DNA from: Thermotoga caldifontis AZM44c09
Lineage (GTDB): Bacteria; Thermotogota; Thermotogae; Thermotogales; DSM-5069
Direction of reading: 5' to 3'
DNA: 64,000 nt
NCBI RefSeq assembly: GCF_000828655.1
Contig: NZ_AP014509.1
Span: 1,426,001 to 1,490,000 of the forward strand
The notes under the pieces were generated by a model, which saw only the letters and a list, made by a program, of their open reading frames with translations, had not been told where the DNA came from and ran no database searches. How positions within the stretch are numbered: position 1 is the first letter of the stretch; the number at the start of each line of letters is the position of its first letter. The translations under genes and the position numbers were made by a program. Of the stretch, positions 20,901 to 46,524 are shown piece after piece.

Positions 20901-21014
20901 AAGATTTAGTCTCGAAGGTCGTGAGTAGAGGGTCAAGTAATAGCTATCGTGGATTCTCAGGTACACATCGATTAAATCCAACGCGAGATCGATATTCAAA
21001 ACGGTCGAAAAATT

Positions 21015-21043
21015 TTGTTGCAGAAACTCCTGCTTGCTACAAT
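21015..21043 (+). promoter_or_regulatory. Internal promoter before the 2-epimerase copy 1
   Basis: TTGTTG (21015-21020), a 17-base spacer and TACAAT (21038-21043) with a TG one base before the -10. It lies in the 233-base gap after the glycosyltransferase gene. A hairpin with 7-bp arms (ACAAGGT and ACCTTGT, 21073-21091) follows in the leader. Confidence 0.55.
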
Positions 21044-21133
21044 ATAACGCGGTTAAGTTCGCGCAACTGCATGTACAAGGTGTGAGACCTTGTCAGCTCA
21101 GCTGAGTCAAACGACGGAAGGCAATTTTAAGGG

Positions 21134-22273
21134 ATGGAATCCGACATTGCGATGAGTTTAGGGGTGCCTTCCCTCGTCCGGGCACGACCGCAGATCACAA
21201 AGGAAGCGGTACTGAATAAAGAATTTCAAAAAGCCGGGATAAATGAAATCCTGGTCCATTCAGACCAGCACTACGATTACAACATGTCCGACGTGTTCTT
21301 CAAGGTGTTGAACATAAGACAACCGGATTACAACTTGAACGTGGGCTCTGGCACCCACGCAGAAATGACAGGGAAAATCATGATAGAGTTTGAGAAAGTC
21401 GTGCTCAAAGAAAAACCGGACTTTATATTAGTCTACGGTGATACGAACACTACCTTAGCTGGAGCGCTGGTGGGAGCGAAGTTGAAGATACCTGTCGCAC
21501 ACGTCGAGGCTGGCTTGAGACAGAAACCGAAAGACATGCCTGAAGAGATAAACAGGATAGTCACGGACCATGTTTCGAGCTTGCTCTTCTGTCCGAGTGA
21601 GCTTGCCGTAGAGAATTTGAAGAAAGAAGGCATCATTGAGGGAGTGCACTTCGTTGGTGATGTCATGTACGAACTGTTTTTGAAGATGAAGCCTTATTTC
21701 ACATACGAGCTGATAGAACAGCTGGGCTTAAAAGAGAACAACTACATCGTGTGCACGATTCACCGGGACTTCAACACCGATGCGAAAGAGAACCTTGAGG
21801 CCATTTTCAAAGAGCTTTCAGAAATTGCCAGAGAAATTCAGATCGTTTTTCCAATCCATCCCAGGACAAGAAAGAAGATAGCCGAGTTTGGACTCGATGA
21901 TTATGCAAAGAATTTGACTTTGATCGATCCTGTGGATTATTTGAGCATGATGGGATTGGTTGAGAAAAGCCTTTGCGTGATCACGGACTCAGGCGGGCTG
22001 CAGAAAGAAGCGTACTGGTGTGAAAAAAGAGCCATAGTTGTGATGCCGGACACAGGCTGGAGAGAACTGATCCAGTGCGGCTGGAACATGCTCGCTGATC
22101 CAGGAAAGATACGCGAAACATTGAATGAATTGTTGAAAAGTGATAACATCGACTATCCCAGAAATGTTTACGGCGAAAGTGATTCGAGTCAGAGGATCGT
22201 TAGAATACTGCAGACCTGTGGAGCAGGTTGGAACGCGGGTCTGGTGAACCCTGGAGGTAGAATCAGATTGTGA
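21134..22273 (+). CDS. wecB: UDP-N-acetylglucosamine 2-epimerase, copy 1 (altered N-terminus)
   Basis: Almost the whole protein is identical to the copy at 34380, but the N-terminus is unlike it. Where the other copy has MKILSLVGARPQIIKEAV, this one reads VPSLVRARPQITKEAV after a run of unrelated codons. The Gly of the G-x-RP UDP-binding loop is changed to Arg, and no good ribosome site fits the possible starts (ATG 21134, ATG 21152, GTG 21164). The enzyme would convert UDP-GlcNAc to UDP-ManNAc. I consider this copy damaged and possibly inactive, while the open frame has stayed intact. It is followed by a 30-base stub of the next gene in the other copy. Confidence 0.7.
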   Translation: MESDIAMSLGVPSLVRARPQITKEAVLNKEFQKAGINEILVHSDQHYDYNMSDVFFKVLNIRQPDYNLNVGSGTHAEMTGKIMIEFEKVVLKEKPDFILVYGDTNTTLAGALVGAKLKIPVAHVEAGLRQKPKDMPEEINRIVTDHVSSLLFCPSELAVENLKKEGIIEGVHFVGDVMYELFLKMKPYFTYELIEQLGLKENNYIVCTIHRDFNTDAKENLEAIFKELSEIAREIQIVFPIHPRTRKKIAEFGLDDYAKNLTLIDPVDYLSMMGLVEKSLCVITDSGGLQKEAYWCEKRAIVVMPDTGWRELIQCGWNMLADPGKIRETLNELLKSDNIDYPRNVYGESDSSQRIVRILQTCGAGWNAGLVNPGGRIRL

Positions 22274-22299
22274 AAGTCCTCGTTGTAACCAACCTCGCT
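21178..22299 (+). repeat. 1.1-kb direct repeat, copy 1
   Basis: Aligned without gaps to 34400-35521 at a constant offset of 13,222 bases. Over about 960 central bases I find one difference (near 21345). Differences cluster at both ends: two near 21200, two near 22165, four within 22270-22296. The repeat covers the epimerase gene and the first ten codons of the downstream glycosyltransferase. Confidence 0.9.
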
Positions 22300-22529
22300 T
22301 CATGTTATTGAAATCACGTTAAGGAGATAATGGCCATGGATAATGGTCATACTGGTTGTTCGTGTGTGATTTGCAAAGCTTTCATAAGGTGTTGAAACAG
22401 TGATACAGCTCAGAAATGCCATCATGATCCAGTTGTGAGAGTTGCCGAAAGGAATCAAGAATCAAAGAATTACTTGTTCATTGGATTACGAATTGCTAAA
22501 GAACTCCGACTACGCTTGGGAGGACCTCT
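22270..22529 (+). pseudogene. Ten-codon stub of a glycosyltransferase, then unassigned sequence
   Basis: 22270-22299 matches the start of the intact glycosyltransferase gene at 35492 (26 of 30 bases), beginning with GTG overlapping the epimerase stop. Homology ends abruptly at 22300. The following 230 bases hold only short open frames; I recognise nothing in them except the GGGAGGAC ribosome site for the flippase. Confidence 0.75.
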
Positions 22530-23969
22530 ATGACTCTCAACGAACGTGATCTTTTGAAGAAATACATCTCCTTCTCTCTTGGCACCTGGCTCAGAACGCT
22601 CATTTCTTTCTTCACCACACCCATCACAACCTGGTTGATCAACCCCGAAGAGTTCGGTAAAGCCACCATGTTCTCCACAGTGTATTCGATCCTTCTTCTT
22701 GTAGCTCTCCTCGGTACTACAAATTCTTTCCTCAGATTCTTCCCGCAGAAATCAGAACAGGAAAAACAAACTCTCCTGTGGAGTTGTCTGATCCCACCAG
22801 TCCTTTTGAGCATCTTGGCGAGCCTTGTTGTTTTCATCTTTAGATCTTCCATAAACACATTTCTCGTGGGAACATCTGATTCAAAAGCTCACGTCATTTT
22901 GATCGCTACGCTCATGACTGGAATTTTCCAAACCTTCAATTTGAACCTCGTGAGGTCCAAGGGAAGAGCCATTCTTTTCTCAACGATCGAAGTGGTTCAG
23001 TCTCTCAGTCAAGTGGGCTTCATCCTGCTCTACGCCCTGCTTGTGGGCCGCAACTTCTACGCTCTGCTGTATGCTCAGCTTTTTTCCAATCTCGTAGCAC
23101 TCATGGTCGGTATGGCCTTCGAAAGATCGTACTGGTTTCCAGTAAAGGTAAACAGAAAGCTTGTCCTCGAGATTATAAAGTACGGATATCCCTTCGTTTT
23201 TTCTGGCCTTGTCTGGTGGCTTCTCCACTGGATAGACAGACTCGTGCTCCGTTTGTACACAAACTTTTCTGAGATAGGTCTTTACTCTGCCGCGTTCAAA
23301 ATAATCTCAGCCATGAACCTTTTCACAACTGGTTTCTCCACCCTTTGGTATCCTTTCGCATACGAGCAGTACGAGAAGAACCCTGAAAACCAGACGATCT
23401 TCAAAAGAGCGCTCGATTATGTGGCTTTCCTGGTGTTCTCTGCCGGGTTTCTTCTTCTTTCCTTCAAGGACGTTATCTTCCTTCTGCTCGCAAGATCTTA
23501 CCGTCCAGCTTCGGCAATTGCTCCGTTTCTGATCCTGAACCCTGTGATGATAACCATGGCCATCGTCGTTGCAAGAGGAATAGATTTTTCCAAAAAAACG
23601 TACTGGTTCATCGTGAGCGATGGAACAGCCGCCGTGCTCAACCTCGCTGGAAACTTCTTGCTGATTCCCATCTTCGGTGCAAGAGGAGCCGCCGTCTCCA
23701 CAGGGTTGTGTTTCATAGTCGTGTTCGCCATCGAGGCGGGTGTGTCCAAAAGGTTGTATCCTGTTCCCTACGATTTGAAAAAGGTCTACTACCTCGTGGC
23801 TGTTTTTGTTTTCTCGGCGATCTTGCACACATTCTCTCAAAATCTGTTTCTGCCAGTTCTTTCGTCTGCATTGGGGCTTCTTGCCACGATCTTTCTGTAC
23901 AGATCGGAGTTTTCAAAAGTTTTGTCCATAGCTGCCGATTTTCTCAAAACCATTCTCCACCGTAAATAG
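22530..23969 (+). CDS. wzx: Polysaccharide flippase (Wzx/MATE-like), copy 1
   Basis: A 479-residue membrane protein with about 14 hydrophobic segments spread along its length, the size and pattern of the polysaccharide branch of the MOP flippase superfamily. Its first part (KKYISFSLGTWLRTLISFF, then TTPITTWLINPEEFGKATMF) is the family start. It would move undecaprenyl-linked repeat units across the inner membrane. A second flippase lies at 36679; they share the family but not detailed sequence. It ends module A; no polymerase lies in that module. Confidence 0.9.
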   Translation: MTLNERDLLKKYISFSLGTWLRTLISFFTTPITTWLINPEEFGKATMFSTVYSILLLVALLGTTNSFLRFFPQKSEQEKQTLLWSCLIPPVLLSILASLVVFIFRSSINTFLVGTSDSKAHVILIATLMTGIFQTFNLNLVRSKGRAILFSTIEVVQSLSQVGFILLYALLVGRNFYALLYAQLFSNLVALMVGMAFERSYWFPVKVNRKLVLEIIKYGYPFVFSGLVWWLLHWIDRLVLRLYTNFSEIGLYSAAFKIISAMNLFTTGFSTLWYPFAYEQYEKNPENQTIFKRALDYVAFLVFSAGFLLLSFKDVIFLLLARSYRPASAIAPFLILNPVMITMAIVVARGIDFSKKTYWFIVSDGTAAVLNLAGNFLLIPIFGARGAAVSTGLCFIVVFAIEAGVSKRLYPVPYDLKKVYYLVAVFVFSAILHTFSQNLFLPVLSSALGLLATIFLYRSEFSKVLSIAADFLKTILHRK

Positions 23970-24155
23970 TTTCGACATCTTCATCCCAAAACACACAGAA
24001 AAACTTGCAGGAAAGAAAGCGCACCGAAGCGGAACCAGATTTTCACAGCTCCTGCGTCCTGGAAACTCCATTTTATGATTCACGTAGTTCACACCCTGTC
24101 AGCAAATGTTATGTTAGCCCAGTGCTTAGCTTGCCCATGATTATGTTCAACAAGC

Positions 24156-24184
24156 TTGACAGACATTCACTAAAATGTTATCAT
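24156..24184 (+). promoter_or_regulatory. Consensus-like sigma-A promoter
   Basis: TTGACA (24156-24161), exactly 17 bases, then TATCAT (24179-24184). It lies within the 474-base gap between the first flippase and the second priming transferase and is the best match to a housekeeping promoter in that gap. Confidence 0.6.
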
Positions 24185-24324
24185 GTACGTGGAAATCACT
24201 TTAGAACACTTGCAAAATATTTTGACAGTCTGAAGCGAATGCGTTCGTCAGAACCGATTTGAAAAATGAAGATTCGACGTTTCCTGAATGGCTCTGAAGT
24301 TGTCTCATTCGAACGGATTGGGTA

Positions 24325-24431
24325 TATAATGTTACTGCTCAGGGCGTTGAGCAACAGGCAGGAAAGTAATGTATCAATTATCCCCCGCTTGGTAGACGAA
24401 GCAAGGGTCCAGAAAATTGCTCAAGGGGGAT
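24325..24431 (+). promoter_or_regulatory. -10 box and structured leader before polysaccharide module B
   Basis: A perfect TATAAT (24325-24330) is followed by a GCTCA/TGAGC hairpin (24337-24352) and a longer pairing of ATCCCCC (24380-24386) with GGGGGAT (24425-24431). The latter stem closes directly before the ribosome site of the next gene. The leader could influence translation or elongation of a long polysaccharide transcript. I found no ops-type element and no known riboswitch pattern. The rest of the 23970-24443 gap shows no gene. Confidence 0.4.
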
Positions 24432-24443
24432 CAAGGTGAAGAG

Positions 24444-25682
24444 ATGAAAAAAGCAGCAGTGCTGTTCTTTCTGGATTGGTCGGTGCTCTTGCTTTTGAAT
24501 TACACACTGAGTGAAGCTTTGCTTGCCAGTGTTGTATTTTCTTTCATCTGTTGTGTTCTTCTGTTTGCCTTCAGGGTGTACGAAGACGAGTACCTGACCG
24601 ATCTTTATCAGCAATTTGTGAGAATTCTGGTCGCGCTGCTCCTTTCAGGTTTTGCCAGATACATACTCTATCCCTTATTTCACGACGCGATTGGGCTGAG
24701 ACATCTTGCCATCAATGTTTTGCTTGGAAGCGTTACGATCGGCTCTGTTAACTGCTCGCTGGGTGTACTGTTCAGAAAGAAAGTCAAGCCGAAAAGATGT
24801 GTGGTGATCGGAAAAGCGGAGATAGAACCCGTGCTTGAAGAAATCGCGAAGAAGAGCAACGGTGAGTTCGTCTTCGTCGAAAGGATCAATCCAGACCCAG
24901 CCAAACTGAGGCAAAAAGCAAGCAGCGTCGATGCCGTCGTTGTGGCCGACTACGGACTGTTCCAGTCTGTGAGAAACCAGCTCGATGGAAAGTACCAGAT
25001 ACTCTTACTCCCGGAGCTCGCAGAACGCGTTCTGAAGAGAATACCACTTGAAGTGGCTGAATCTTTCAGAAGTTACTACGAAATACTCTTCACTCAGGCA
25101 AAAGAATCACCGGCAAAGCGTGTGCTGGATATCGTTTGTGGCCTTGCAGGTTTGATAATCTTTTCCCCCGTGATGCTCGTCGTGGCTTTGTGTATACTCG
25201 TAGAAGATGGAAGGCCGGTGGTATTCAAACAGCAGCGCGTTGGTAGAGACGGAAAAACCTTCACCATCTACAAATTCAGAACGATGAGGAACGAGAAGCC
25301 AGGCGAAGCGAGGTTCGTTGACAAGGAAGCACACAGAATTTTGAAGATAGGCAGGTTGATCAGACCGATAAGGCTCGATGAAACTCTGCAGTTCGTCAAC
25401 ATTTTGAAAGGCGACATGAGCATCGTTGGACCGAGACCGGAGCAGATCGATTTTGTGAAAGAGTTCGAGCAAAAACTTCCCTTCTACAGCTACAGGCACA
25501 AATTGAAACCCGGTCTCACCGGCTGGGCGCAGATCATGTACAAATACGCATCAAATCTGGAAGAAACCAGAACGAAGCTGTCTTACGATTTGTACTATGT
25601 CAAAAACAGAACGATCTTCATGGATATCGCGATACTGTTGCAAACGATAGAGGCAGTCATCTGGAGGAGGGGGGCTAAATGA
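24444..25682 (+). CDS. Priming sugar-phosphate transferase, copy 2
   Basis: A 412-residue paralogue of the transferase at 12779: N-terminal helices, a middle domain and the catalytic core KRVLDIVCGLAGLIIFSPVM, FKQQRVGRDGKTFTIYKFRT, PIRLDETLQFVNILKGDMS, VGPRPEQIDF and KPGLTGWAQIMYKY. The LDE-T-Q differs from the LDELPQ of copy 1, which may reflect another sugar. I place the start at the ATG at 24444, after AAGGTGAAG; the frame is open from 24417. It opens module B and overlaps the next gene by four bases. Confidence 0.9.
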   Translation: MKKAAVLFFLDWSVLLLLNYTLSEALLASVVFSFICCVLLFAFRVYEDEYLTDLYQQFVRILVALLLSGFARYILYPLFHDAIGLRHLAINVLLGSVTIGSVNCSLGVLFRKKVKPKRCVVIGKAEIEPVLEEIAKKSNGEFVFVERINPDPAKLRQKASSVDAVVVADYGLFQSVRNQLDGKYQILLLPELAERVLKRIPLEVAESFRSYYEILFTQAKESPAKRVLDIVCGLAGLIIFSPVMLVVALCILVEDGRPVVFKQQRVGRDGKTFTIYKFRTMRNEKPGEARFVDKEAHRILKIGRLIRPIRLDETLQFVNILKGDMSIVGPRPEQIDFVKEFEQKLPFYSYRHKLKPGLTGWAQIMYKYASNLEETRTKLSYDLYYVKNRTIFMDIAILLQTIEAVIWRRGAK

Positions 25683-26965
25683 GAAAAAGTAGGTTATCGA
25701 TTTTGTTGATAAACAATTACTTTCCACCGGAGATCGGAGCAGCTTCGCATCTGTACTACTACCTTGCCAAGCAACTTGTCGCAAGGGGTCATGAAGTCAC
25801 CGTTTTGACCGGTGTGCCGAGGTACAACGTTGCAAAGCAACTGTATCAAAGCTATTCCGATAGGTTCAAAGATAGGTCTGTACTCGAAGAGAACTACGAA
25901 GGGATAAAAGTCCTCAGAGTCAAGCTGCCCTACGTCGATCGTCGGAACGTTATCAGAAGAGGCTTTGAACACTTTGAAATCGCTTGGAAGTTGTACAGGA
26001 ATTTCGTCAAACTTCTTGATCGTGGTTCACATCGTGTCGACGTGTCGCTCGTTTATTCTCCTCCTCTCACACTTTACTGGACTGCTGAAAAGGTGAGACA
26101 AAAAACGGGCGCACCTTACGTGCTAAATGTTCAAGATCTTTTTCCTCAAGCCGCGATTGACTTAGGACTTATGCGAAGTCCACTCATAATTAAGTTCTTC
26201 CGTTGGCTCGAGAAAAAAGCGTATGAATCTGCCGATTTGGTCATGACTCATTCAGAGAAAAACAAGGAATACGTTGCTTCGGTTGTTGGGAATCACAAGA
26301 AAGTCTTGTTCATTGAAAATTGGGTTGATACAGAGGAGATACTGCCAGGGCAGAAAAAGAACGAGTTCTCCGAGAAGTATGGCTTGGTCGACAAATTCGT
26401 CGTTTCTTTCGCAGGAACACTGGGTTTTTCCCAGGACATAGAAGTGATACTTCGCGCTGCCCAACTGTTGAGACAGCAAAAGGATATCGTTTTCGTGATT
26501 GTCGGGGACGGTACACGGCTTGAAGAAGCAAAAAGGATGGTGCATGAGCATAAACTGGAAAATGTTCTGTTGTTACCACCGGTTACTAAGGAAAAATACC
26601 CTCTGGTGCTTCAATCCTCCGATGTTTCCCTTGTCACGCTGACGAAGGATGTAAAAACACCAGTGGTACCCTCCAAAATCCTGAGCATAATGTCAGCTGG
26701 TATTCCTGTACTTGGAGCAATGAACCTGGATGGAGACGCCCCAGATCTCATAAGAAGAGCAAAAGCGGGTTACGTGGTGGCAGCGGGCGACTATGAGTCT
26801 CTTGCGCAGAAAATAATCTACTTATACCAGAATCCAGAGATCAGAAGGGAACTTGGTACGAACGGAAGGAAATACATCGAAGAGAACCTTTCTGTTAAGA
26901 GAGCTGCTGTGAAATTGGAATGCATATTTAACGATCTCTTGATCAGAAGAGAAGGGAGGCATTAG
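25679..26965 (+). CDS. Glycosyltransferase, family 4, WbuB-like
   Basis: A 428-residue GT-B enzyme of the WbuB type. The start LSILLINNYFPPEIGAASHL, the long acceptor domain with LTGVPRYNVAKQLYQ, and VQDLFPQAAIDLGLM are characteristic; the donor domain has VSFAGTLGFSQDIEVILRAA, FVIVGDGTRLEEAKRMV, LLPPVTKEKYPLVLQSSDVS and VPSKILSIMSAGIPVLG. WbuB enzymes are often the second step on lipid-linked GlcNAc or FucNAc, which fits its place right after a priming transferase. Confidence 0.88.
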   Translation: MRKSRLSILLINNYFPPEIGAASHLYYYLAKQLVARGHEVTVLTGVPRYNVAKQLYQSYSDRFKDRSVLEENYEGIKVLRVKLPYVDRRNVIRRGFEHFEIAWKLYRNFVKLLDRGSHRVDVSLVYSPPLTLYWTAEKVRQKTGAPYVLNVQDLFPQAAIDLGLMRSPLIIKFFRWLEKKAYESADLVMTHSEKNKEYVASVVGNHKKVLFIENWVDTEEILPGQKKNEFSEKYGLVDKFVVSFAGTLGFSQDIEVILRAAQLLRQQKDIVFVIVGDGTRLEEAKRMVHEHKLENVLLLPPVTKEKYPLVLQSSDVSLVTLTKDVKTPVVPSKILSIMSAGIPVLGAMNLDGDAPDLIRRAKAGYVVAAGDYESLAQKIIYLYQNPEIRRELGTNGRKYIEENLSVKRAAVKLECIFNDLLIRREGRH

Positions 26966-26969
26966 GTGA

Positions 26970-27998
26970 ATGGACTATCTAAGTTATTACAAGGGCAAAA
27001 GAGTGCTGGTAACGGGTGGCGCAGGAGCGGTAGGTTCGAATTTGGTTAAAAAGTTGGTTGAGCTTGGTTCGTTCGTAGTTGTCATTGACAACCTCTCGAG
27101 CGGATACACCTGGCTTTTGCCTCAAGATTCTTCCAACTTGCTGTTTATCAAAGGGGACATAACCAACGATATCGACTTGAAACGTGTTTTCAACGAAGAA
27201 CCAGAAGTAATTTTCCATTTGGCTGCTTTCTTCGCCAATCAGAATTCCGTTGACTATCCAGAAAAGGACCTAATGGTGAATGGGTTAGGAACTCTTAAAC
27301 TACTTGAGTACTGCAGAATTTACGGAAAAGTGGAGCGCTTTGTGTACGCATCAAGTGGATGTTCCATATATCCATCGGACGCGCCGATGCCGTACAAAGA
27401 AGACCTCCCGCTCTCTTCATGGCTCAGCACACCTTATCAGATAACCAAGGCTCTGGGTGAACTGTATGGAAATTATTACTACAAGATGTATGGGATCCCC
27501 TTCACAAAAGCACGTTTCTTCAATTCGTTTGGTCCTGGTGAAGTGCCAGGTCAGTACCGCAACGTGATACCAAACTTCATCTACTGGGCTATGCTTGGTA
27601 AGCCTCTCCCAATAACCGGCACCGGTGAAGAAACGAGGGACTTTACATATGTTGGAGATATCGTTGACGGTCTCCTTAGGATGGGATATTACAAAGAAGC
27701 TATTGGTGAAGCTTTCAACCTGGCGGCTGGGAGAGAAATCAAAATAAGGTATCTGGCTGAGAAAGTAAACGAACTCACCGGCAACAATGCTGGCATTGTG
27801 TTCAAAGAAAGAAGAAAGTGGGATACGAAGCCAAGGATGCTTGCATCGAACGAGAAAGCGAAGAGGATCTTGGGCTTTCAGCCCGACACAGACTTTGAAA
27901 GACGGCTCAAAGAAACGGTCGAATGGTTCAAGGAAAATTGGGATAAAATCGTTGAGTGTGCTGAGTTTGGTCCTGGGATCAGCTCTGCGGTGAGGTAG
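26970..27998 (+). CDS. NAD-dependent nucleotide-sugar epimerase/dehydratase
   Basis: A 342-residue extended SDR enzyme. NAD loop VTGGAGAVGSNLVKKL at residues 12-27, VIDNLSSGYTWLL, FHLAAFFANQNSVDYPEKD, then YASSGCSIYPSD and TPYQITKALGELYGNYYY with the Tyr-x3-Lys pair. It resembles UDP-glucose 4-epimerase and dTDP/UDP-sugar dehydratase relatives. The product is not determinable. Unusual is the Cys in SSGCSIY where many relatives have a Ser/Thr. Only four bases separate it from the previous gene. Confidence 0.85.
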   Translation: MDYLSYYKGKRVLVTGGAGAVGSNLVKKLVELGSFVVVIDNLSSGYTWLLPQDSSNLLFIKGDITNDIDLKRVFNEEPEVIFHLAAFFANQNSVDYPEKDLMVNGLGTLKLLEYCRIYGKVERFVYASSGCSIYPSDAPMPYKEDLPLSSWLSTPYQITKALGELYGNYYYKMYGIPFTKARFFNSFGPGEVPGQYRNVIPNFIYWAMLGKPLPITGTGEETRDFTYVGDIVDGLLRMGYYKEAIGEAFNLAAGREIKIRYLAEKVNELTGNNAGIVFKERRKWDTKPRMLASNEKAKRILGFQPDTDFERRLKETVEWFKENWDKIVECAEFGPGISSAVR

Positions 27999-28029
27999 AA
28001 CTGTATTCTTGCTTAGTGAAAGGGGGTTA

Positions 28030-30219
28030 ATGTTTCTGCTCCAACTCATTCAGAACTACAGAACAGGAAAAATCGAGCTCGTTGATGTACCCGTACCGAG
28101 GGTGGGATCGAAGTTTGTGCTGGTGAAGAACGCAGCCTCTGTCGTCAGTGTGGGTACTGAACGCTCGATGATTGAACTTGGTAGAAAGAGCTTACTCGGA
28201 AAAGCAAGAGCAAGACCTGATCTTGTGAAGAGATTTTTCGAGAAAGCGAAGCAACAAGGGTTCATCAAAACTCTCCAAGAAGCACTCGAAAGGCTGGACG
28301 AACCAGTCCCTCTTGGTTACTCGTCTGCAGGTGTGGTTGTTGAAGTTGGTTCAGCAGTGAGGAGTCTTTCTCCAGGTGACCGCGTTGCTTGCATAGGAGC
28401 TGGTTTTGCTTCTCACGCAGAGTACGTCTGTGTCCCTGAGATGTTGTGTTCGAAGATTCCGCCCAATGTGGATTTTGATGAAGCAGCATTTGGAATGCTT
28501 GGAATCATCTCGATGCATGGTATAAGATCCGCGAATTTGTCCGTAGGGGAAAAAGTAGCTGTCGTCGGACTGGGCCTATTAGGGATTCTAACCTGTCAAC
28601 TCCTCAACGCGTACGGTTTCGACTTTGTGGGATTCGATATAGATTCATCTAAGGTCGAATTTGCGAAGAAACTGGGATTTTCAGGTGTTTATTCGGATGT
28701 CGAAAAATTCAAGAAAGCAGTACTAAACTCAACTAAAGGTTTTGGAACCGATTCCGTACTGATCACAGCAGCTACGGAAAGTTCTGAACCAGTGCGACTT
28801 GCCGTCGATCTTGTTCGCCCCAGGGGGAAAATTGTGGTTGTCGGAGTAGCTGACATCCATCCGAACCGCAACGAGTTATGGCACAAAGAAGCAGAAATAG
28901 TAGTTTCAAAGGCAGAGGGGCCTGGTATTAGCGATCCAGTTTATGAAATGGAAGGCGTAGATTATCCTATCGGCTATGTACGATGGACTGAGAACAGAAA
29001 CCTCGAAGAATTTCTCAGATTGCTGTCAAAGAAGTCGATTAACGTAAGAAGCCTGATCACTCACAGAGTTAAAATCCACGATTCTGTCCAGCTTTATGAA
29101 GCAATTCTATCCGGTCAGATAAAGCCAATAGGAGTGGTAATTGATTATGATACAACCCAGGAAAACAAAAACAAGTTTGCTCTTATCAATCAAAGAAATG
29201 TCTCTTCTAATCAAACCGATCACAATGTTACAATTGGCGTAGTTGGTTCAGGTCTTTTCGGCAAATCCGTGCTGTTACCTAGGTTACGAAAGCTGGTCAA
29301 AAAAGATCCACGGGTGAAGTTGAAATGGCTTGTTAGTTCGCGTGGATATACAGGATTTCATGCCGCACGGAAATTTGGCTTTGAGGCTTGTTCTACCCAG
29401 TTTGAGCAAGTGCTAGAAGACCCTGAAGTTTCTGCCGTCATGATACTCACACGACATAGTCAGCATAAGCATATGGTGATAGAGGCGTTGAAGAACGGGA
29501 AGAAGGTGTACGTAGAAAAACCCCTCTGTGTGAACGAGCAGGAGCTGGAAGAAATAACGAGCGCCTATACTGACCTGATAAAGCAGGGTGGATCTCCCGT
29601 TGTGTTCGTTGGTTACAACAGAAGGTTTTCGTCCCATGCAAAGATGTGCAAGGAGTATTTCCGCGATCGACGTTCGCCAATGATGATAAACTATCGCGCC
29701 AACGTTGGTCCAATACCAGCAGATCTCTGGGTACACTCTGAGAAAGAAGGTGGGGGAATGATCATCTCAGAGGTGTGTCATTTTGTCGATTTGTTGATAT
29801 ACTTGATCGGTTCGAGACCTATCAGAATATATACTGAAGCGATAAGAGGTGATGGACAAACGGTGATCCATAAAGACAATGTGGTCATAAGTATTGGATT
29901 CGAAGATGGATCAGTTGGTAACATCTTTTACACTGCTGTGGGTTCACGATCGTATTCAAGAGAAAAGGTGGAAGTCTTCTGTGACGGTAAAGCAGCTGTT
30001 ATAAACGATTTTCGGCGAACAGAGTTTTTTGGAGACCGCAGATGGAAATTCCAGACAATCAGCCAGGATATGGGATATGAGAATGAGTTAAAGCATTTCC
30101 TGGAAGTTATCAAGGGTAAACAACCGCTTTCCCTCACGTACGAGGAGATATACTATTCCACACTCGCGATTTTCAAAGCTGTGGAGTCACTCAACAAGTG
30201 TTCATCGGTGAATTTGTGA
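28030..30219 (+). CDS. Fused zinc-type alcohol dehydrogenase and Gfo/Idh/MocA oxidoreductase
   Basis: A 729-residue two-domain protein. Residues 1 to about 370 are a medium-chain dehydrogenase (VPVPRVGSKFVLVKNAASVV, GYSSAGVVVEVGSAVRSLSP, VAVVGLGLLGILTCQLL). From about 400 a Gfo/Idh/MocA domain follows (VTIGVVGSGLFGKSVLLPRL, EALKNGKKVYVEKPLCV with the catalytic Lys-Pro, and GGGMIISEVCHFVDLLIYL). Such bi-domain proteins recur in polysaccharide loci, but the reaction is not established to my knowledge; oxidation-reduction of a sugar nucleotide is likely. I take the ATG at 28030, which has AGGGGG 3 bases upstream, instead of the TTG at 28009. Confidence 0.88.
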   Translation: MFLLQLIQNYRTGKIELVDVPVPRVGSKFVLVKNAASVVSVGTERSMIELGRKSLLGKARARPDLVKRFFEKAKQQGFIKTLQEALERLDEPVPLGYSSAGVVVEVGSAVRSLSPGDRVACIGAGFASHAEYVCVPEMLCSKIPPNVDFDEAAFGMLGIISMHGIRSANLSVGEKVAVVGLGLLGILTCQLLNAYGFDFVGFDIDSSKVEFAKKLGFSGVYSDVEKFKKAVLNSTKGFGTDSVLITAATESSEPVRLAVDLVRPRGKIVVVGVADIHPNRNELWHKEAEIVVSKAEGPGISDPVYEMEGVDYPIGYVRWTENRNLEEFLRLLSKKSINVRSLITHRVKIHDSVQLYEAILSGQIKPIGVVIDYDTTQENKNKFALINQRNVSSNQTDHNVTIGVVGSGLFGKSVLLPRLRKLVKKDPRVKLKWLVSSRGYTGFHAARKFGFEACSTQFEQVLEDPEVSAVMILTRHSQHKHMVIEALKNGKKVYVEKPLCVNEQELEEITSAYTDLIKQGGSPVVFVGYNRRFSSHAKMCKEYFRDRRSPMMINYRANVGPIPADLWVHSEKEGGGMIISEVCHFVDLLIYLIGSRPIRIYTEAIRGDGQTVIHKDNVVISIGFEDGSVGNIFYTAVGSRSYSREKVEVFCDGKAAVINDFRRTEFFGDRRWKFQTISQDMGYENELKHFLEVIKGKQPLSLTYEEIYYSTLAIFKAVESLNKCSSVNL

Positions 30220-30229
30220 GGGTAGTTTG

Positions 30230-30397
30230 ATGAAGGTGTTGCAAATAAACACAGCATGTGGTAGAGGAAGTACAGGACGAATAGTTCTGAACATTCATAA
30301 AACGCTCCTGCAGATGGGTCACGAAAGTTATGTGGCGTACGGTAGACCTCTTGCTATCTGCTGCCCGGAAGCCATAAGGATATATAAAGGCGACTGA
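30230..30397 (+). pseudogene. N-terminal fragment of a family 4 glycosyltransferase
   Basis: 55 codons beginning MKVLQINTACGRGSTGRIVL, the unmistakable start of one GT4 subgroup, continuing MGHESYVAYGRPLA and then stopping at TGA 30395. The remaining 300 or so residues are absent. It still has a ribosome-site-like GAGGGTAG and sits exactly between two intact genes, so it is a truncation left by a cassette exchange or deletion. Confidence 0.8.
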
Positions 30398-30413
30398 AGG
30401 AGGAAGTTCCGCC

Positions 30414-31514
30414 TTGCGAGTTTGTGTAGTATCATTGAAATTCTCACCCGGGCATTTTTCACATATGATTGCGTACGCTGAGCTGTTCCGCGAATTGGGC
30501 CATGACGCGTTCTTATTTCTGTCAAAAGATTATTCCAAGATGATCGAAGGGCAAGAAATACCGGTTTTATTCTTCGAAGAAGATGCCCGATATCCGGAAG
30601 CTGATCTTGTGTTTTTCCAAAATGTATCAACAATCAATCACAAGGTTGCAGCTTACTACAGGAAGATTGGTAACAAAATTCTATATCTTTATCACGAGCC
30701 ATTCGACAGTATCTCCGAGTATCTGAAACAAGGAGTAAAGCAGGCAATAAAAGCTGTAGTAGCGCATCATTTCTCCGTCAAGCTGTTGAAACTGTCAGAT
30801 TTGGTAATTGTACCCTCTAATTTCGCTTTGAAGCTTTACCAGAGAGGCGACGTAAAGTACTGCAAAAATGTAGTAGTCATACCACTCCTGTTCACGGATG
30901 AACTGCAGGAAGACCTGGATATTCAGAAAAAAGAATACTTCTCGTACATCGGCCATGCTGTGATTGGCCATGCGTTTGATGTTTACCTGGATTTCATCAA
31001 GTACGCCTACAAAAACCAGAGCAGGCTTAAATTCATGATCGCAACCAGAACAGATCTGAGCAAAGTTATCTCGAAGGACGAAATCCTTCAGGAGATGATC
31101 TCAAAAGATGCTTTGAAGGTAATGCACGGAAGGCCCTTGAAGAATTCCGAGATAAACGATGCGTATGCAAAGAGTTTTTGTGTGTGGAACATTTACAGAA
31201 GAAGTACTCAGAGTGGAGTTCTGCCAAAAGCCTTCATGTTTGGAACACCAGTTTTGGCGTCCAGTGTTGGTAGTTTTCCAGAGTATGTTGTGAACGGTAA
31301 GAATGGATATATTTTTGACATAGACAGTGCGAGGAACTACGAGAACCTCCTGCGAGTTGTTTGCGAAGTCCAGGCTAGATTAGAAACCATGAGTCTGGAA
31401 GCAAGAAGAACCTTTGAGAATATCTTCCACTATAAATCGCAGGTAGAGAATGCAAAAAATATAATAGGCTCCCTTTTCGTGCGTACTTTCGAAGATGGCA
31501 AGACTTTAGATTAA
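30414..31514 (+). CDS. Glycosyltransferase (GT4-like)
   Basis: A 366-residue GT-B-like protein. It starts LRVCVVSLKFSPGHFSHMIA and AELFRELGHDAFLFLSKDY, and contains ILYLYHEPFDSISEYL, LSDLVIVPSNFALKLYQ and the donor-domain region FGTPVLASSVGSFPEYVVNG with GYIFDIDSARNYENLL. The TTG start follows GGAGG. It is more AT-rich than the GDP-fucose genes. The sugar transferred is unknown. Confidence 0.78.
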   Translation: MRVCVVSLKFSPGHFSHMIAYAELFRELGHDAFLFLSKDYSKMIEGQEIPVLFFEEDARYPEADLVFFQNVSTINHKVAAYYRKIGNKILYLYHEPFDSISEYLKQGVKQAIKAVVAHHFSVKLLKLSDLVIVPSNFALKLYQRGDVKYCKNVVVIPLLFTDELQEDLDIQKKEYFSYIGHAVIGHAFDVYLDFIKYAYKNQSRLKFMIATRTDLSKVISKDEILQEMISKDALKVMHGRPLKNSEINDAYAKSFCVWNIYRRSTQSGVLPKAFMFGTPVLASSVGSFPEYVVNGKNGYIFDIDSARNYENLLRVVCEVQARLETMSLEARRTFENIFHYKSQVENAKNIIGSLFVRTFEDGKTLD

Positions 31515-31934
31515 ACGAATTCCCACCTAGAGGTGAAAGCAAGAATAACGGGGAAGGGACTAGAAAGCAAGGTTTGGATACAGGGAACTTACAAGATTTC
31601 TTTGAAGGAGGTGGAACACTTGGGGCAAAAAATCTTAAGCGTTGTAATTCAATTCGATGAGGGCCGACAGTCAGGGAGTTATATATTACGTGTTTTATGG
31701 TAAGATGCGGAGCAGAGGAGTTGGAGTTAGCTGGTATCGAATACAACAATAGAGCGGAGCTAGGAAAGAAAAATTCAGCGGAAGGCATTGCTACAAAATC
31801 TTTAAGATCATGAGAAAAGAGATAAATTGACAGAAGATCCTGGCCAGCACATTCGAGATGTGTTTGGCGTGCCGAAAGAGAAACTGCCACAGCGAAATTC
31901 CTGTTGCGTGTTTATGTAACGCTCAAGGAGGACG
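31515..31934 (+). pseudogene. Decayed polysaccharide gene region
   Basis: 420 bases without an intact gene. At 31605-31613 a near-perfect AAGGAGGTG ribosome site precedes a TTG at 31620 that opens a 27-codon frame LGQKILSVVIQFDEGRQSGS, resembling the start of a family 2 glycosyltransferase (ILSVVI), closing at TAA 31701. Further short frames follow, with ELAGIEYNNRAELGKKNSAE near 31720-31785 and DVFGVPKEKLP near 31855, out of frame with each other. I read this as a remnant of at least one deleted gene; the exact family is uncertain. Confidence 0.5.
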
Positions 31935-33296
31935 ATGATGACTTACAGAATTGACGTTTTGAAGGTAGTTTTCATAGGGTGGTTGCTAGGTATCTCTTCG
32001 CTGATTTGGACATCATCCGATTTGCTTAAACAGCAAACGTTTCTGCTCTTCGTACTACTTGTTCCTTCCGCGCTGTTTTGTCTTGACGACTCGCTTGCCT
32101 TGCCTACGTTCCTATATTTTTACCTCTTGAGGAGATTCTTCATAATATTCGACAACTATATTTCGACATACCTTATATATTTCCTGGGCAGCGCTGCAAT
32201 CGTCAAAGTTAGTTTTAGAAAGGTTCCATTAACCGCGAGTTTTCTCAGATCACTGCTATTACTTTTTACTGCTCTTGCTGGGTACGATCTTTTGATCAAG
32301 TTTGCACTTTATGGCACGAACAATGGTATTGAATCATTTCAGACAGTTGCTTCAAGCCATCTTTTATCGTGGCTCTCAACCTTTGCGACTATTATTTTGG
32401 CATACTATTACTGTTACTTTTTCGAAACGCGACTAGCAGGTAATAACGATAAAAGCCTCTTTGTTACTTTGTTTTTAGCCAACATCTCGTACGCTTTATT
32501 CCTGGTGAACAACGCTTCCATTTTACAAAGAGTTGTAGTTGTTAGTGAAGTCATCGGTCTCGAAACGACAAGTTTTACAAGGGTAGATCCGAATTTCTAT
32601 GTATCTGAAACGCTGATTATAGCTTTACTGTTTTTAAGGAGGAAAGGTCTCCTAGTTGCATTGCTCATGCTGCTCTTCGTTCTCAATGCACTTTATCTCA
32701 ACTCAATGACTGGTTTCGTTCTGATCATATTTGTTACAGTTTTCCTATTCCTCCGAAAAAAGACTCCAGCTAGGTATGCTGTGACATTAATTGCAGTCGC
32801 ATTGATACTTTTTATTGCTTCAATACCTGCGTACTTGAAGTATCTGGAAATTACAAACACCATAGGTGTCTCCCAATATGGTGCTTTGAATCTCATCCTC
32901 ACTGGCAGAATCGAAAAGTGGTTTGGCTATATCCGACTAATATTAGACAATCCATTCGGTTTAGGACGGGATAGCGCTTGGAAGTTCACCACAAAATACA
33001 TAGGTTATGCAACGTATGCACACAATTTCTACATTCAGACAATGGCGGATCATGGGATTTTACTCGGTGGGGTATTGATAATTTACCTTCTTGCGCAACT
33101 GAGAGACCTTTATCGAATCAGAAAAAGCGAACCGCAAATGTACATTGCGTATCTTCTTTTTCTTTTGGCAGGTACCGTTCTTTCTAACAATTATACTGTT
33201 CCTATGTTCTTTTTGCTAGCTATGCGGTACACTAAAGAGTTGAAAGTAGAAAGTAGGAGGAACATTTATGAAGATCGCTATTCTCTCAGCACATAA
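31935..33296 (+). CDS. wzy: O-antigen polymerase/ligase-like membrane protein (Wzy candidate)
   Basis: A 453-residue protein with about 11 hydrophobic segments and a large loop between about residues 320 and 370. The loop region holds LTGRIEKWFGYIRLILDNPF, GLGRDSAW and TYAHNFYIQTMADHGILLGG, the pattern (Gly-rich, H-N-x-Y-x-Q) of the Wzy_C/O-antigen ligase family. It probably polymerises repeat units in the periplasmic leaflet. It is the only polymerase candidate in the window although there are two flippases and two priming enzymes. The start follows GGAGGACG. It overlaps the next gene by 29 bases. Confidence 0.82.
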   Translation: MMTYRIDVLKVVFIGWLLGISSLIWTSSDLLKQQTFLLFVLLVPSALFCLDDSLALPTFLYFYLLRRFFIIFDNYISTYLIYFLGSAAIVKVSFRKVPLTASFLRSLLLLFTALAGYDLLIKFALYGTNNGIESFQTVASSHLLSWLSTFATIILAYYYCYFFETRLAGNNDKSLFVTLFLANISYALFLVNNASILQRVVVVSEVIGLETTSFTRVDPNFYVSETLIIALLFLRRKGLLVALLMLLFVLNALYLNSMTGFVLIIFVTVFLFLRKKTPARYAVTLIAVALILFIASIPAYLKYLEITNTIGVSQYGALNLILTGRIEKWFGYIRLILDNPFGLGRDSAWKFTTKYIGYATYAHNFYIQTMADHGILLGGVLIIYLLAQLRDLYRIRKSEPQMYIAYLLFLLAGTVLSNNYTVPMFFLLAMRYTKELKVESRRNIYEDRYSLST

Positions 33297-34362
33297 GAGT
33301 TATGATTACAGAATCCACAGGCATATTAGAATGCTCCTGTCATTAGGACATGAGGTGGATTACTACAACATCAGCAATGAATCGGCGCCGGACCCAGGTA
33401 TAAGTGACTCTCGTTTTAACTATATACACCTTTATTTGAGGAAGAAATTTTCACCACAAACTCTCAAAGTAGCGTATAAGCTGATCAAAATGCTCATGAA
33501 AACGCATTATGATTATTACTTCGTTCAGGACGAGGAACTACTTGCCTTGTTCCCTTTGGTTCGAACCATCGAAAAGGGAAAAATCATTCTTGATGTTCAT
33601 GAAATGCTGCGCGGTGATTTTCTAAAGCGCATCTTGATACGTACTTTGCTTAGTTTTCCAAAAAAACACAGGGCTTGTCTAACTGCGTTGCACAGCAACG
33701 TTGAATACCTGAAGCGTTATTTCGATGATGTCTATGTTCTCGACAACCTGCCTTTATACACCGACTTCGACGTCTGTGCTGAAATGAAACAAAAGGAAAA
33801 ACTGAACGTCATTTATGTTGGAATGATAACCGAAGAAAACAGGCAAATGTTGAAGACCTTGGATGTCATGCACAAATTAATCGATACAGGTCGATTCACG
33901 GCAACGTTGATAGGACCTATCGCAAACCGCACTCGTCGTGATGAGATTGAACGCAGAATAAAGCATCTTCAATCAGAACACCCACAGGACTTCCATTACC
34001 TTGGTCCACTTGGAAGAAAGGAAGTGGTTGCTTATCTTTGTCATGCTGATATCATGATAGTGTTACTAAGCTTTCCAAGCGAATGTAAGGTGGCGTCAAA
34101 TAAATTTCTCGAAGCAATCGCCGCCGGGTTGGTTTTGGTCACTGACCACGTTAATTTCTCGCCAGCTGTTCCCGAGCATTTGATTGTGAAGGTGGACAAG
34201 AATGATACACCAGATTGGATTGCTGATAGGATAGTAAGTTTGTATGATTGCCAAGAGAAAATTCTCACGGCGAAAAAAGAGATAAGAAAATGGTTCAAAA
34301 ATTCTAGGCTATTTTGGGAATCATACGAGTACGTTTATAAGCAATTGTTCCGAACAAATTGA
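33268..34362 (+). CDS. Glycosyltransferase (GT4-like)
   Basis: A 364-residue GT-B-type protein: MKIAILSAHKSYDYRIHRHI at the start, with LDVHEMLRGDF, VYVGMITEENRQMLKTL (donor-domain beginning), HYLGPLGRKEVVAYLCHADI and SNKFLEAIAAGLVLV, an EAxAxG-type donor motif. It starts inside the polymerase gene behind AGGAGGAAC, so the two are translationally linked. Substrates unknown. Confidence 0.82.
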   Translation: MKIAILSAHKSYDYRIHRHIRMLLSLGHEVDYYNISNESAPDPGISDSRFNYIHLYLRKKFSPQTLKVAYKLIKMLMKTHYDYYFVQDEELLALFPLVRTIEKGKIILDVHEMLRGDFLKRILIRTLLSFPKKHRACLTALHSNVEYLKRYFDDVYVLDNLPLYTDFDVCAEMKQKEKLNVIYVGMITEENRQMLKTLDVMHKLIDTGRFTATLIGPIANRTRRDEIERRIKHLQSEHPQDFHYLGPLGRKEVVAYLCHADIMIVLLSFPSECKVASNKFLEAIAAGLVLVTDHVNFSPAVPEHLIVKVDKNDTPDWIADRIVSLYDCQEKILTAKKEIRKWFKNSRLFWESYEYVYKQLFRTN

Positions 34363-34379
34363 CTCGAAAGTGAAGGAGC

Positions 34380-35495
34380 ATGAAAATCCTTTCCCTTGTT
34401 GGGGCACGACCGCAGATCATAAAGGAAGCGGTGCTGAATAAAGAATTTCAAAAAGCCGGGATAAATGAAATCCTGGTCCATTCAGACCAGCACTACGATT
34501 ACAACATGTCCGACGTGTTCTTCAAGGTGTTGAACATAAGACAACCGGATTACAACTTGAACGTGGGTTCTGGCACCCACGCAGAAATGACAGGGAAAAT
34601 CATGATAGAGTTTGAGAAAGTCGTGCTCAAAGAAAAACCGGACTTTATATTAGTCTACGGTGATACGAACACTACCTTAGCTGGAGCGCTGGTGGGAGCG
34701 AAGTTGAAGATACCTGTCGCACACGTCGAGGCTGGCTTGAGACAGAAACCGAAAGACATGCCTGAAGAGATAAACAGGATAGTCACGGACCATGTTTCGA
34801 GCTTGCTCTTCTGTCCGAGTGAGCTTGCCGTAGAGAATTTGAAGAAAGAAGGCATCATTGAGGGAGTGCACTTCGTTGGTGATGTCATGTACGAACTGTT
34901 TTTGAAGATGAAGCCTTATTTCACATACGAGCTGATAGAACAGCTGGGCTTAAAAGAGAACAACTACATCGTGTGCACGATTCACCGGGACTTCAACACC
35001 GATGCGAAAGAGAACCTTGAGGCCATTTTCAAAGAGCTTTCAGAAATTGCCAGAGAAATTCAGATCGTTTTTCCAATCCATCCCAGGACAAGAAAGAAGA
35101 TAGCCGAGTTTGGACTCGATGATTATGCAAAGAATTTGACTTTGATCGATCCTGTGGATTATTTGAGCATGATGGGATTGGTTGAGAAAAGCCTTTGCGT
35201 GATCACGGACTCAGGCGGGCTGCAGAAAGAAGCGTACTGGTGTGAAAAAAGAGCCATAGTTGTGATGCCGGACACAGGCTGGAGAGAACTGATCCAGTGC
35301 GGCTGGAACATGCTCGCTGATCCAGGAAAGATACGCGAAACATTGAATGAATTGTTGAAAAGTGATAACATCGACTATCCCAGAAATGTTTACGGTGAAG
35401 GTGATTCGAGTCAGAGGATCGTTAGAATACTGCAGACCTGTGGAGCAGGTTGGAACGCGGGTCTGGTGAACCCTGGAGGTAGAATCAGATTATGA
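34380..35495 (+). CDS. wecB: UDP-N-acetylglucosamine 2-epimerase, copy 2 (intact)
   Basis: A 371-residue non-hydrolysing epimerase interconverting UDP-GlcNAc and UDP-ManNAc in the cytoplasm. The start MKILSLVGARPQIIKEAVLN carries the UDP-binding G-x-RP loop; ILVHSDQHYDYNMSDVFF, LVYGDTNTTLAGALVGAKL, HVEAGLRQKPKDMPEEINR and TDSGGLQKEAYWCEKRAIVV are catalytic-site signatures. It has its own ribosome site (GAAGGAG) and overlaps the next gene by four bases. UDP-ManNAc would be a repeat-unit precursor, or be oxidised further by an enzyme not seen here. Confidence 0.95.
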   Translation: MKILSLVGARPQIIKEAVLNKEFQKAGINEILVHSDQHYDYNMSDVFFKVLNIRQPDYNLNVGSGTHAEMTGKIMIEFEKVVLKEKPDFILVYGDTNTTLAGALVGAKLKIPVAHVEAGLRQKPKDMPEEINRIVTDHVSSLLFCPSELAVENLKKEGIIEGVHFVGDVMYELFLKMKPYFTYELIEQLGLKENNYIVCTIHRDFNTDAKENLEAIFKELSEIAREIQIVFPIHPRTRKKIAEFGLDDYAKNLTLIDPVDYLSMMGLVEKSLCVITDSGGLQKEAYWCEKRAIVVMPDTGWRELIQCGWNMLADPGKIRETLNELLKSDNIDYPRNVYGEGDSSQRIVRILQTCGAGWNAGLVNPGGRIRL

Positions 35496-35521
35496 GAGTT
35501 CTCGTTGTAACCAACCTTGCT
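34400..35521 (+). repeat. 1.1-kb direct repeat, copy 2
   Basis: The partner of 21178-22299. Here the repeat lies in an intact context: a full epimerase gene overlapping a full glycosyltransferase gene. This makes it the likely template, with copy 1 the partial one. Confidence 0.9.
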
Positions 35522-36685
35522 CCTTTGAAGACGAATCCGAACGCTGGCATATTCGTTGTTCGAAGATTGCAGCATTATAGCGTGCATGGTGTGAACTTCG
35601 ATGCTGTCTCACTGGGTTTCGAAAACAGCAAAACGGTGTTGCTGTTGAAAAGATTTCTGCGAAGGTCCACTACAGGAAATCCCTTAGAAGAACATGAAGG
35701 TGTGAAGTTCAAGCCAGTCTTGATCCCGAGGAACCTGGGCATAGTTTTGATGAACAAAGTCTCTCGAAATTACTTTGTGAAGATCGCTGAACGCTGTGCC
35801 GAGAGGATCGAACGATCGTTCAAGATTGTAGAATACGATCTGATACACGCTCATGGCATGTACGATGTTCCAGCAGGCTTGATAGCGAAGATTCTTGCAG
35901 ATAAGTACAGAAAACCATTCATTGTCACCGCACATGGAAGTGACGTTAATATTCTTATGCCACGGAGAAGAGAAATATACGTGGACGTTCTTGAAAGCGC
36001 ATCGGCAACAATATTTGTTAGTAATGCGCTTCTTGAAAGAGCAAAATCTTTAGGATTTTCCGGCAGAAATGCGGTGGTGATACCAAACGGGTATGATGAA
36101 ACGATATTCAAACCCATGGACAAAGAAATGGTCAGGAAAGAACTTGGAATATACAAAGAAGGGTACAAGTACGTGGGCTTTGTGGGAAATCTCATACCGA
36201 TAAAGCGGGCGGACAAACTGGGAGAGATATTCAACCTAATTGCAAAGGAAATTCCAGAAACGTTCTTCATCGTGGTCGGGGATGGCTCACTGAGACAAAG
36301 GATAGAAAAAGAAACGAAAGGACTGAACATAATCTTCACCGGGAGACTACCACAGACTGAGGTCGCAAAGTACATGAACGCGATGGACGTGATGGTGCTT
36401 CCAAGCAGGAATGAAGGATGGCCCTGTGTCGTCCTTGAAGCTCAGGCCTGTGGAACATGTGTGGTGGGGAGCAATAACGGAGGAATTCCAGAAGCAATAG
36501 GATTTTCAGAATACGTTGTTGAGGAAGGAGATGACTTTGAAGAGAGATTTGCAAAAAGAGTGGTGGAGGTATTGAAAGAAGGGTACGATGTGAATGAGCA
36601 TTTAGAAAGAGCAAAAGCGTTTACCTGGAGAGGTGTTACGGAAAAGGAGATACACTTATACAAGAGGTTGATAGGACTGTGCTAA
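35492..36685 (+). CDS. Glycosyltransferase, family 4
   Basis: A 397-residue GT-B enzyme. Acceptor domain MRVLVVTNLAPLKTNPNAGI with FVVRRLQHYSVHGVNFD; DLIHAHGMYDVPAGLIAK and VTAHGSDVNILMPRR; donor domain VGFVGNLIPIKRADKLGEIF, FFIVVGDGSLRQRIEKE, IIFTGRLPQTEVAKYMNAMD and LPSRNEGWPCVVLEAQACGT with the E-x7-E motif. The ATG overlaps the epimerase stop. It overlaps the following flippase gene by seven bases. Confidence 0.92.
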   Translation: MRVLVVTNLAPLKTNPNAGIFVVRRLQHYSVHGVNFDAVSLGFENSKTVLLLKRFLRRSTTGNPLEEHEGVKFKPVLIPRNLGIVLMNKVSRNYFVKIAERCAERIERSFKIVEYDLIHAHGMYDVPAGLIAKILADKYRKPFIVTAHGSDVNILMPRRREIYVDVLESASATIFVSNALLERAKSLGFSGRNAVVIPNGYDETIFKPMDKEMVRKELGIYKEGYKYVGFVGNLIPIKRADKLGEIFNLIAKEIPETFFIVVGDGSLRQRIEKETKGLNIIFTGRLPQTEVAKYMNAMDVMVLPSRNEGWPCVVLEAQACGTCVVGSNNGGIPEAIGFSEYVVEEGDDFEERFAKRVVEVLKEGYDVNEHLERAKAFTWRGVTEKEIHLYKRLIGLC

Positions 36686-37941: not shown

Positions 37942-37963
37942 CCCGTAGAAAGGGGGAAGCTTT

Positions 37964-45010: not shown

Positions 45011-45273
45011 TTCTGTTTCCTTGCCTCTCTTATTATCTCTTCGATTTCATCCTCTGAGAGCCTGTTCAGTCCTTTTTCCAGTGAGAACATCCGTAACTTC
45101 TCAACGGCCATCTGGACCCTCATTCTTTCTATGAAATCCAGAATCTCTTTTGGATCTCCTTCGATTCTCACAACAACAGCCTTTGGCTTTCCATTCACCG
45201 TGATGACCGTTTCGCTGTCCTTCCAGAGCACGGCCGGATTGTTCCTGATATCCCTGCTTGAAACAAAGCGCAT
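45007..45273 (-). CDS. Phd/YefM-like antitoxin
   Basis: An 88-residue DNA-binding antitoxin. Its N-terminal half, MRFVSSRDIRNNPAVLWKDS and ETVITVNGKPKAVVVRI, is the Phd/YefM fold (dimer that binds operator DNA); the C-terminal half, with many charges (SLEKGLNRLSEDEIEEIIRE), should wrap the toxin. A strong GGAGGTGAT ribosome site precedes the ATG. The gene comes first in the pair and its promoter contains tandem 12-base repeats, consistent with autorepression. A decayed relative lies at 46525-46617. Confidence 0.85.
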   Translation of the reverse strand: MRFVSSRDIRNNPAVLWKDSETVITVNGKPKAVVVRIEGDPKEILDFIERMRVQMAVEKLRMFSLEKGLNRLSEDEIEEIIREARKQK

Positions 45274-45291
45274 ACCATCACCTCCAGTAAT

Positions 45292-45320
45292 ATCATACGA
45301 TATGTCCTACAATATGTCAA
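45292..45320 (-). promoter_or_regulatory. Promoter/operator of the PIN-Phd pair
   Basis: On the minus strand TTGACA (45320-45315), 17 bases, then TATGAT (45297-45292), essentially consensus. The same stretch contains tandem 12-base near-repeats CATATTGTAGGA and CATATCGTATGA, and the palindrome ATATC-GTAT-GATAT over the -10 box, so antitoxin binding would block polymerase. Confidence 0.8.
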
Positions 45321-45418
45321 ACAAAACATCACAATACTTCTGAGACTGCGGGTTCTTCAGGTGCGCTGAATCCTTCGCCACCTTTTAGTGTGATTTTATC
45401 CATTCGGTGAACTACCCG

Positions 45419-45565
45419 CCTTATAGAAGGCTTTCTGCTTGGACCTGTGATGGCTCGTGAAACTCTTTTGAGTTCCGCCGCCTCTGAACCTGCAGGTTCG
45501 AAGCGTCTTTGTCACGTCATCAAGATTTGATGTATTTTTGTAATCCATTCCGCAGAAAACTGCGC
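45419..45565. repeat. Dispersed repeat R2, copy a (coding remnant)
   Basis: Shares long stretches with 46629-46757, including CTTGGACCTGTGATGGCTCG and CAGAAAACTGCGC. Read on the minus strand both copies encode a similar peptide (ELKRVSRAITGPSRKPSIRR here, ELKRISRAITGPSGKRSIKQ there), each interrupted by stops. It is a decayed gene of unknown family. It fills most of the 45321-45742 gap. Confidence 0.7.
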
Positions 45566-45569
45566 TAAG

Positions 45570-46442: not shown

Positions 46443-46463
46443 ATCAATACCACCTTTCATTTT

Positions 46464-46469: not shown

Positions 46470-46524
46470 CTCTGCCGGTTTGAAAAACTACGGTCCCTTT
46501 CAACACCTGTCGTGTCTCTCGATG

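Follow-up and report, generated by a model that had tools for sequence, protein, structure and literature searches.

Epimerase repeats around a polysaccharide module in Thermotoga caldifontis: a damaged copy whose centre was probably overwritten by gene conversion

Homologous recombination at epimerase genes is known from Regions D and D' of Neisseria meningitidis, where a model has the locus acquired into one resident epimerase gene (PMC5349592). Gene conversion between the tuf genes of Salmonella has been measured and is rarer near the gene ends (PMC5485169). Here we describe an epimerase gene pair around a polysaccharide module in Thermotoga caldifontis, and compare it with other genomes of the order. 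The window is the whole stretch of 64,000 nucleotides that was analysed, and positions are numbered within it.

The two repeat copies lie on the + strand, copy 1 upstream at 21169-22299 and copy 2 downstream at 34391-35521. They are direct, align without gaps at an offset of 13,222 bp and are identical at 1119 of 1131 positions, leaving 12 differences (98.9%). The genome, a single contig of 2,014,912 bp, contains just these two epimerase copies at the DNA level; a third Epimerase_2 gene, more distant in sequence, is located far from the locus. In copy-1 coordinates, the first 43 bp differ at 21175, 21178, 21179, 21198 and 21211, and the last 126 bp at 22174, 22178, 22270, 22274, 22278 and 22296. 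The 962 bp between them (21212-22173) have one difference, at 21346, against 11 in the two edges. The longest run with no difference is 827 bp, at 21347-22173 in copy 1 and 34569-35395 in copy 2. The earlier note had described gap-free 2-epimerase copies with one difference in about 960 central bases, about ten or more in the first 40 and last 130 bases, and direct repeats 13.2 kb apart, and these figures were reproduced.

A gap this large appeared in 8 of 4,000,000 shuffles of 12 uniformly placed differences (about 2e-6). With 30 bp trimmed from each repeat end, 4 differences were left (P about 0.013), and with 45 bp trimmed, 3 (P about 0.035); since the trimmed tests keep few differences and have higher P, most of the signal is in the outermost 73 bp. 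These bases (43+30) contain 9 of the differences and the inner 1058 bp contain 3 (Fisher p 2e-9, with the split picked after looking at the data). Their divergence of 12% is about that of an orthologue from another species of the genus (10.3% to G001). Uniform divergence after one recent duplication was rejected by both the shuffle test and the Fisher split. A steady-state conversion gradient alone was also tried and rejected: it is better than a uniform model (likelihood ratio 27.7), but leads to the expectation of too many central differences (P 0.009). An empty centre at this P under the fitted gradient means that a single recent tract must be assumed.

Copy 2 contains an open reading frame of 371 aa (34380-35495, +) for a WecB-type non-hydrolysing UDP-GlcNAc 2-epimerase. 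It matches TIGR00236 at 295 bits, above the curated cut-off of 210, and AAGGAG stands immediately 5' of its ATG. The nearest solved relatives are UDP-diacetamido-glucuronate 2-epimerases. In the identical core, copy 2 agrees with the consensus at 55 of 56 central protein columns conserved at 90% or more. It is best read as an intact, working epimerase gene.

The frame of copy 1 (21134-22273, +; 379 aa) has no normal start, and the normal first residues are missing. All three amino-acid differences within the aligned protein are in copy 1 and at conserved sites, as judged from 90 aligned relatives. In copy-2 numbering these are G8R (Gly in 88/88 relatives covering the site), I14T (I, M or V in 88/88) and G341S (Gly in 81/82). 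Lys15, the neighbour of I14, belongs to the active site and has been investigated in the enzyme of E. coli (PMC10622841). Copy 1 probably makes no active enzyme. The copy-1 repeat is cut inside genes at both ends, and at 22270-22299 (+) it keeps the first 30 bp of a glycosyltransferase gene, with a GTG start; a complete glycosyltransferase gene follows copy 2 at 35492-36685 (+). Asp36 is present in both copies (21263-21265 and 34485-34487), with Gly in 88/88 relatives, and some transfer from copy 1 to copy 2 could account for this shared residue. The leader of copy 1 gave an RNA fold no better than shuffles (z 0.27), and promoter- and terminator-like sites around it were at about twice the shuffle mean across the region, which is uninformative.

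Ten of the differences can be polarised: copy 1 has the derived state at nine of them and copy 2 at one (21211), while 21175 and 22274 are ambiguous. The outgroups for this, read off alignments, were G001 and two glycosyltransferase starts; with one T. caldifontis genome compared and no copy-1 orthologue in relatives, neither copy can be polarised by an outgroup of its own. Copy 1 resembles a gene in decay, with a centre cleaner than its age would lead one to expect.

The explanation we favour, with moderate confidence, is that copy 1 is the remnant of an old module end whose centre was recently overwritten by conversion, most likely with copy 2 as donor. An older module would have ended in an epimerase followed by a glycosyltransferase, and would then have been trimmed by deletion. 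Copy 1, as what was left, would have lost its start, nearly all of the next gene and selection on its sequence. Non-crossover homologous recombination would recently have replaced at least 827 bp of its centre, presumably from copy 2 to copy 1, with the identical core as the minimum tract. The outermost tens of bases would have escaped and kept their divergence of about 12%. Gene conversion is favoured because uniform divergence is rejected, 9 of 10 changes are in copy 1, and ends and centre are discordant in relatives (described below). Hence the earlier proposal of conversion between older copies, in place of one recent duplication, is the better-supported one.

The window copies are 98.9% alike and 89.3-89.7% identical to G001, so that likeness is higher within the genome than between genomes, although a recent duplication would yield the same. 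We consider it quite improbable that one recent duplication of 1.1 kb, with extra end mutations at formation or insertion and no later conversion, explains the pair. The inner 1058 bp differ by only 0.28%, and the cuts inside genes at both ends of copy 1 would suit such an event. Against it, the differences in the outer bases are scattered and some are synonymous, which fits age better than junction error, and the ancestry of the centre differs from that of the ends in G041 and G042.

An assembly artefact is unlikely. It would require copies that differ throughout, with one consensus pasted by the assembler into both centres. The 12 differences are indeed confined to the 178 bp next to the left repeat edge and the 126 bp next to the right one, as would be the case if pasting had spared only what a read could link to unique flank. 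As a control for repeat resolution, a second rRNA operon is lacking, since there is one LSU match, and a search of the genome for IS605 elements for the same use found none. However, the genome is one contig, and a repeat of 1.1 kb is small compared with long reads. Pasting of a mixture should also have brought copy-1 decay into the centre, where only 1 of 56 columns deviates (a weak test), and the mosaic in relatives does not depend on identical copies.

The genes between the repeats are all on the + strand. Flippase A (Wzx-like, 22530-23969) is followed by a second priming sugar transferase (24417-25682). A glycosyltransferase, an SDR epimerase/dehydratase and a fused ADH-like/GFO-IDH-MocA protein occupy 25679-30219; the last of these (28009-30219) joins a zinc-dehydrogenase-like domain to a GFO/IDH/MocA oxidoreductase in one polysaccharide-locus protein. 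Next come a glycosyltransferase (30414-31514), a Wzy_C protein (31935-33296), which is the only Wzy candidate found in the locus, and a glycosyltransferase directly 5' of copy 2 (33268-34362). Another Wzy_C gene, in a 1038-aa frame, is far from the locus. Outside the bracket, flippase B and an asparagine-synthase-like protein (36679-39691, +) are about 92.5% identical to G001. Further along, at 45183-46699, there are two pairs of short direct repeats, 87-89% alike and spaced by about 1.2-1.3 kb, with more partial copies in G001 (L022). No relative was found in the viral contigs searched, and in the plasmids searched all 260 records were below 60% identity.

The stretches on either side of copy 1 (20901-21168 and 22300-22529, +) have no convincing match in the G001 loci compared. 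In G001, the second priming transferase comes immediately after the gene matching that at window position 19719, and neither copy 1 nor flippase A lies between them. The G001 flippase A is on another contig, beside the counterpart of the window right flank and with glycosyltransferases upstream; one of these is similar to the gene that follows copy 2. This arrangement suggests to us that an older module was trimmed and that copy 1 and flippase A are what is left of its end. Gene order in G001 is to be read with care, as the assembly has about 20 contigs, two of them sharing 9,622 identical bases.

These two contigs are C3 and C4 (L015, L016). Contigs C1 and C15 (L022, L104) each have a counterpart, 80% alike, of a short stretch near 48435-48676 of the window. 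Mixed strains, redundant contigs or real duplication are the alternatives for both cases. G001 was not counted as a second genome with two epimerase copies, since its matches on C3 and C4 are possibly one place. It also has a further epimerase relic with four in-frame stops, beside a polysaccharide module (L017:9300-10158).

Copy 2 is not uniform in its distance to G001. Third codon positions differ at 40/96 in codons 5-100 and at 36/247 in codons 101-347 (p 2e-7), so that the 5' third (34392-34679 against L015) has about three times the third-position divergence of the rest. In flippases A and B and the asparagine-synthase-like gene, 11-13% of third positions differ from G001. The 5' part of copy 2 is 81.7% identical to G001 and 79.0% to G022, from another family; the 3' part is 92.6% and 68.0% identical, respectively, for a breakpoint placed after viewing the profile. 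The apparent intragenic mosaic indicates that the 5' third of the epimerase was imported, either by the window genome or by G001.

Homologous recombination has ample substrate in direct repeats of 1.1 kb, and the earlier note had proposed that a crossover between them would switch the surface polymer by deletion. Its list of lost genes omitted flippase A. A deletion of 13.2 kb would remove flippase A, the second priming transferase and the Wzy-like gene at 31935. The product of a central crossover would have the 5' end of copy 1 in its sole copy (no normal start, G8R, I14T). Since the damaged 5' end is kept and the Wzy-like gene and flippase A are lost, function would more probably be lost or altered than cleanly switched, and a clean polymer switch is unlikely. 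The proposed switching is not supported at this locus. That such a crossover alters the polymer in part of the population is highly improbable to us, even though a similarly bracketed island has moved in relatives. The 4 other genomes of the genus did not show a deleted form, and none of these has the whole module.

We searched 45 genomes of the order with the copy-2 protein (E <= 1e-60) and found matches in 31. Two same-strand matches within 20 kb are present in four genomes (G000, G034, G041 and G042), a count made from the match list, in which draft contigs hide further pairs. An opposite-strand pair in G019 is 77.7% alike. G041, G042 and G034 each have one full-length copy and one 5'-truncated copy, in direct orientation and with a spacing of about 11 to 13.5 kb. 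In all three the truncated copy is the downstream one, whereas the damaged copy of the window is upstream. A frame or stop defect is flagged in the full-length copies of G042 and G034. Identity within the pair is 98.1% in G041 and 89.3% in G042 (647 bp), and 81.5% in G034 (496 bp). Between G041 and G042 the epimerase copies are 78-83% alike, below the within-genome values.

The G034 pair encloses a polysaccharide module that includes flippase and asparagine-synthase-like genes. In G041, a scan of the genes points to a catabolic island, with a 2-hydroxyacid dehydrogenase, FGGY kinases, KDPG aldolase, a tripartite tricarboxylate transporter, 6-phosphogluconate dehydrogenase and an IS240-type transposase. 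The G042 island has the same ORFs except for this transposase. Over 11,357 aligned bases, the island of about 12 kb is 99.2% identical between G041 (L108) and G042 (L109). Beyond the pair, identity in collinear stretches is 66-78% (71-74% where longer than 1.5 kb). The change in identity comes about 50 bp before the full copy ends and about 100-150 bp inside the truncated one; on this alignment, both change-over points fall inside the epimerase genes. The island bracketed by epimerase copies has thus evidently moved between species. G012 (L118) has one intact epimerase of the same type at the corresponding place and no island. Elsewhere in G041, a non-collinear stretch of 592 bp outside the pair is 97.0% identical to a glycosyltransferase fragment at the right edge of the G042 island.

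The phylogeny of the ends against the centre, which the earlier note had suggested, was run on the 647-bp repeat of G041 and G042. In the centre, 89/89 informative sites group the full (F) and truncated (T) copies within each genome. At the 5' end, 4/4 informative sites group crosswise; at the 3' end 4/6 group by position and the other 2 within genome. These site counts are descriptive, since the boundaries between ends and centre were chosen from the difference map of G041. The G042 T copy matches the G012 lineage at 103/106 and 56/58 sites in its ends and at 379/495 in its centre, which groups with the full copy of G042 itself. We read this as a truncated copy probably converted by the full copy after transfer, with the ends left behind, and as the same pattern of converted centre and unconverted ends that is seen in the window. 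In the open-licence full-text literature we found no paper on gene conversion in a WecB-type epimerase, nor one on such islands in Fervidobacterium.

Host-type sequence makes up both centres in G041 (487/495 to G012), and F has near its 3' end island-side sequence common to G042. These features, and the change-over points of the exchanged island inside the epimerase copies, would suit insertion in one step, by which a foreign module with epimerase sequence at its ends entered the host epimerase through recombination at two different points. Such an event would duplicate the host centre and leave donor sequence at the ends. For the window we think it rather unlikely. It predicts foreign sequence at the left of copy 2 and the right of copy 1, but the changes in the window are in copy 1, at both its ends, and no empty site was found for the window module. 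Conversion of a decaying copy remains our preferred explanation there.

More tentatively, and we give this rather less than an even chance, a WecB-type epimerase at the edge of a polysaccharide locus may be a recurrent homologous gate for modules and islands across the order. It would leave intact and truncated copies, with conversion keeping the arms reusable. If true, modules and islands enter, leave and cross species by recombination inside the epimerase. With the full copy first in G041 and G042, excision could bring back the state of G012, with one full-length gene. These two genomes are a clean natural experiment, with an island at 99.2% in surroundings at 71-74%, and the route of block transfer can be read directly from the change-over points inside a common gene. 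In the window, a probably dead copy kept near-intact looking by its working twin misleads both annotation and the dating of duplications.

The three pairs in relatives are like that of the window in being direct, similarly spaced and truncated in one copy, and in G041 and G042 also in being mosaic. They differ in the downstream position of the truncated copy, the catabolic cargo of G041 and G042, and their identities. The cap locus of Haemophilus influenzae type b is similar in that repeats around a capsule locus permit deletion or amplification, and unlike the window in being a large tandem duplication with insertion-sequence repeats. The Salmonella genes tufA and tufB are also a pair, each of about 1.2 kb, that differ at 12 positions and are homogenised by non-reciprocal transfer (PMC5485169). 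They lie in inverted orientation at a distance of 762 kb, and both are highly expressed, whereas the window copies are 13 kb apart and one is damaged. In Regions D and D' of Neisseria meningitidis, an intact (galE1) and a truncated (galE2) sugar epimerase flank the polysaccharide locus (PMC5349592). The meningococcal epimerase is GalE and that of the window is WecB, a different family; the meningococcal repeats are inverted and invert the locus, while the direct repeats of the window allow only deletion or amplification. The bracket of one intact and one truncated epimerase around a polysaccharide module is common to the window and meningococcal D and D'.
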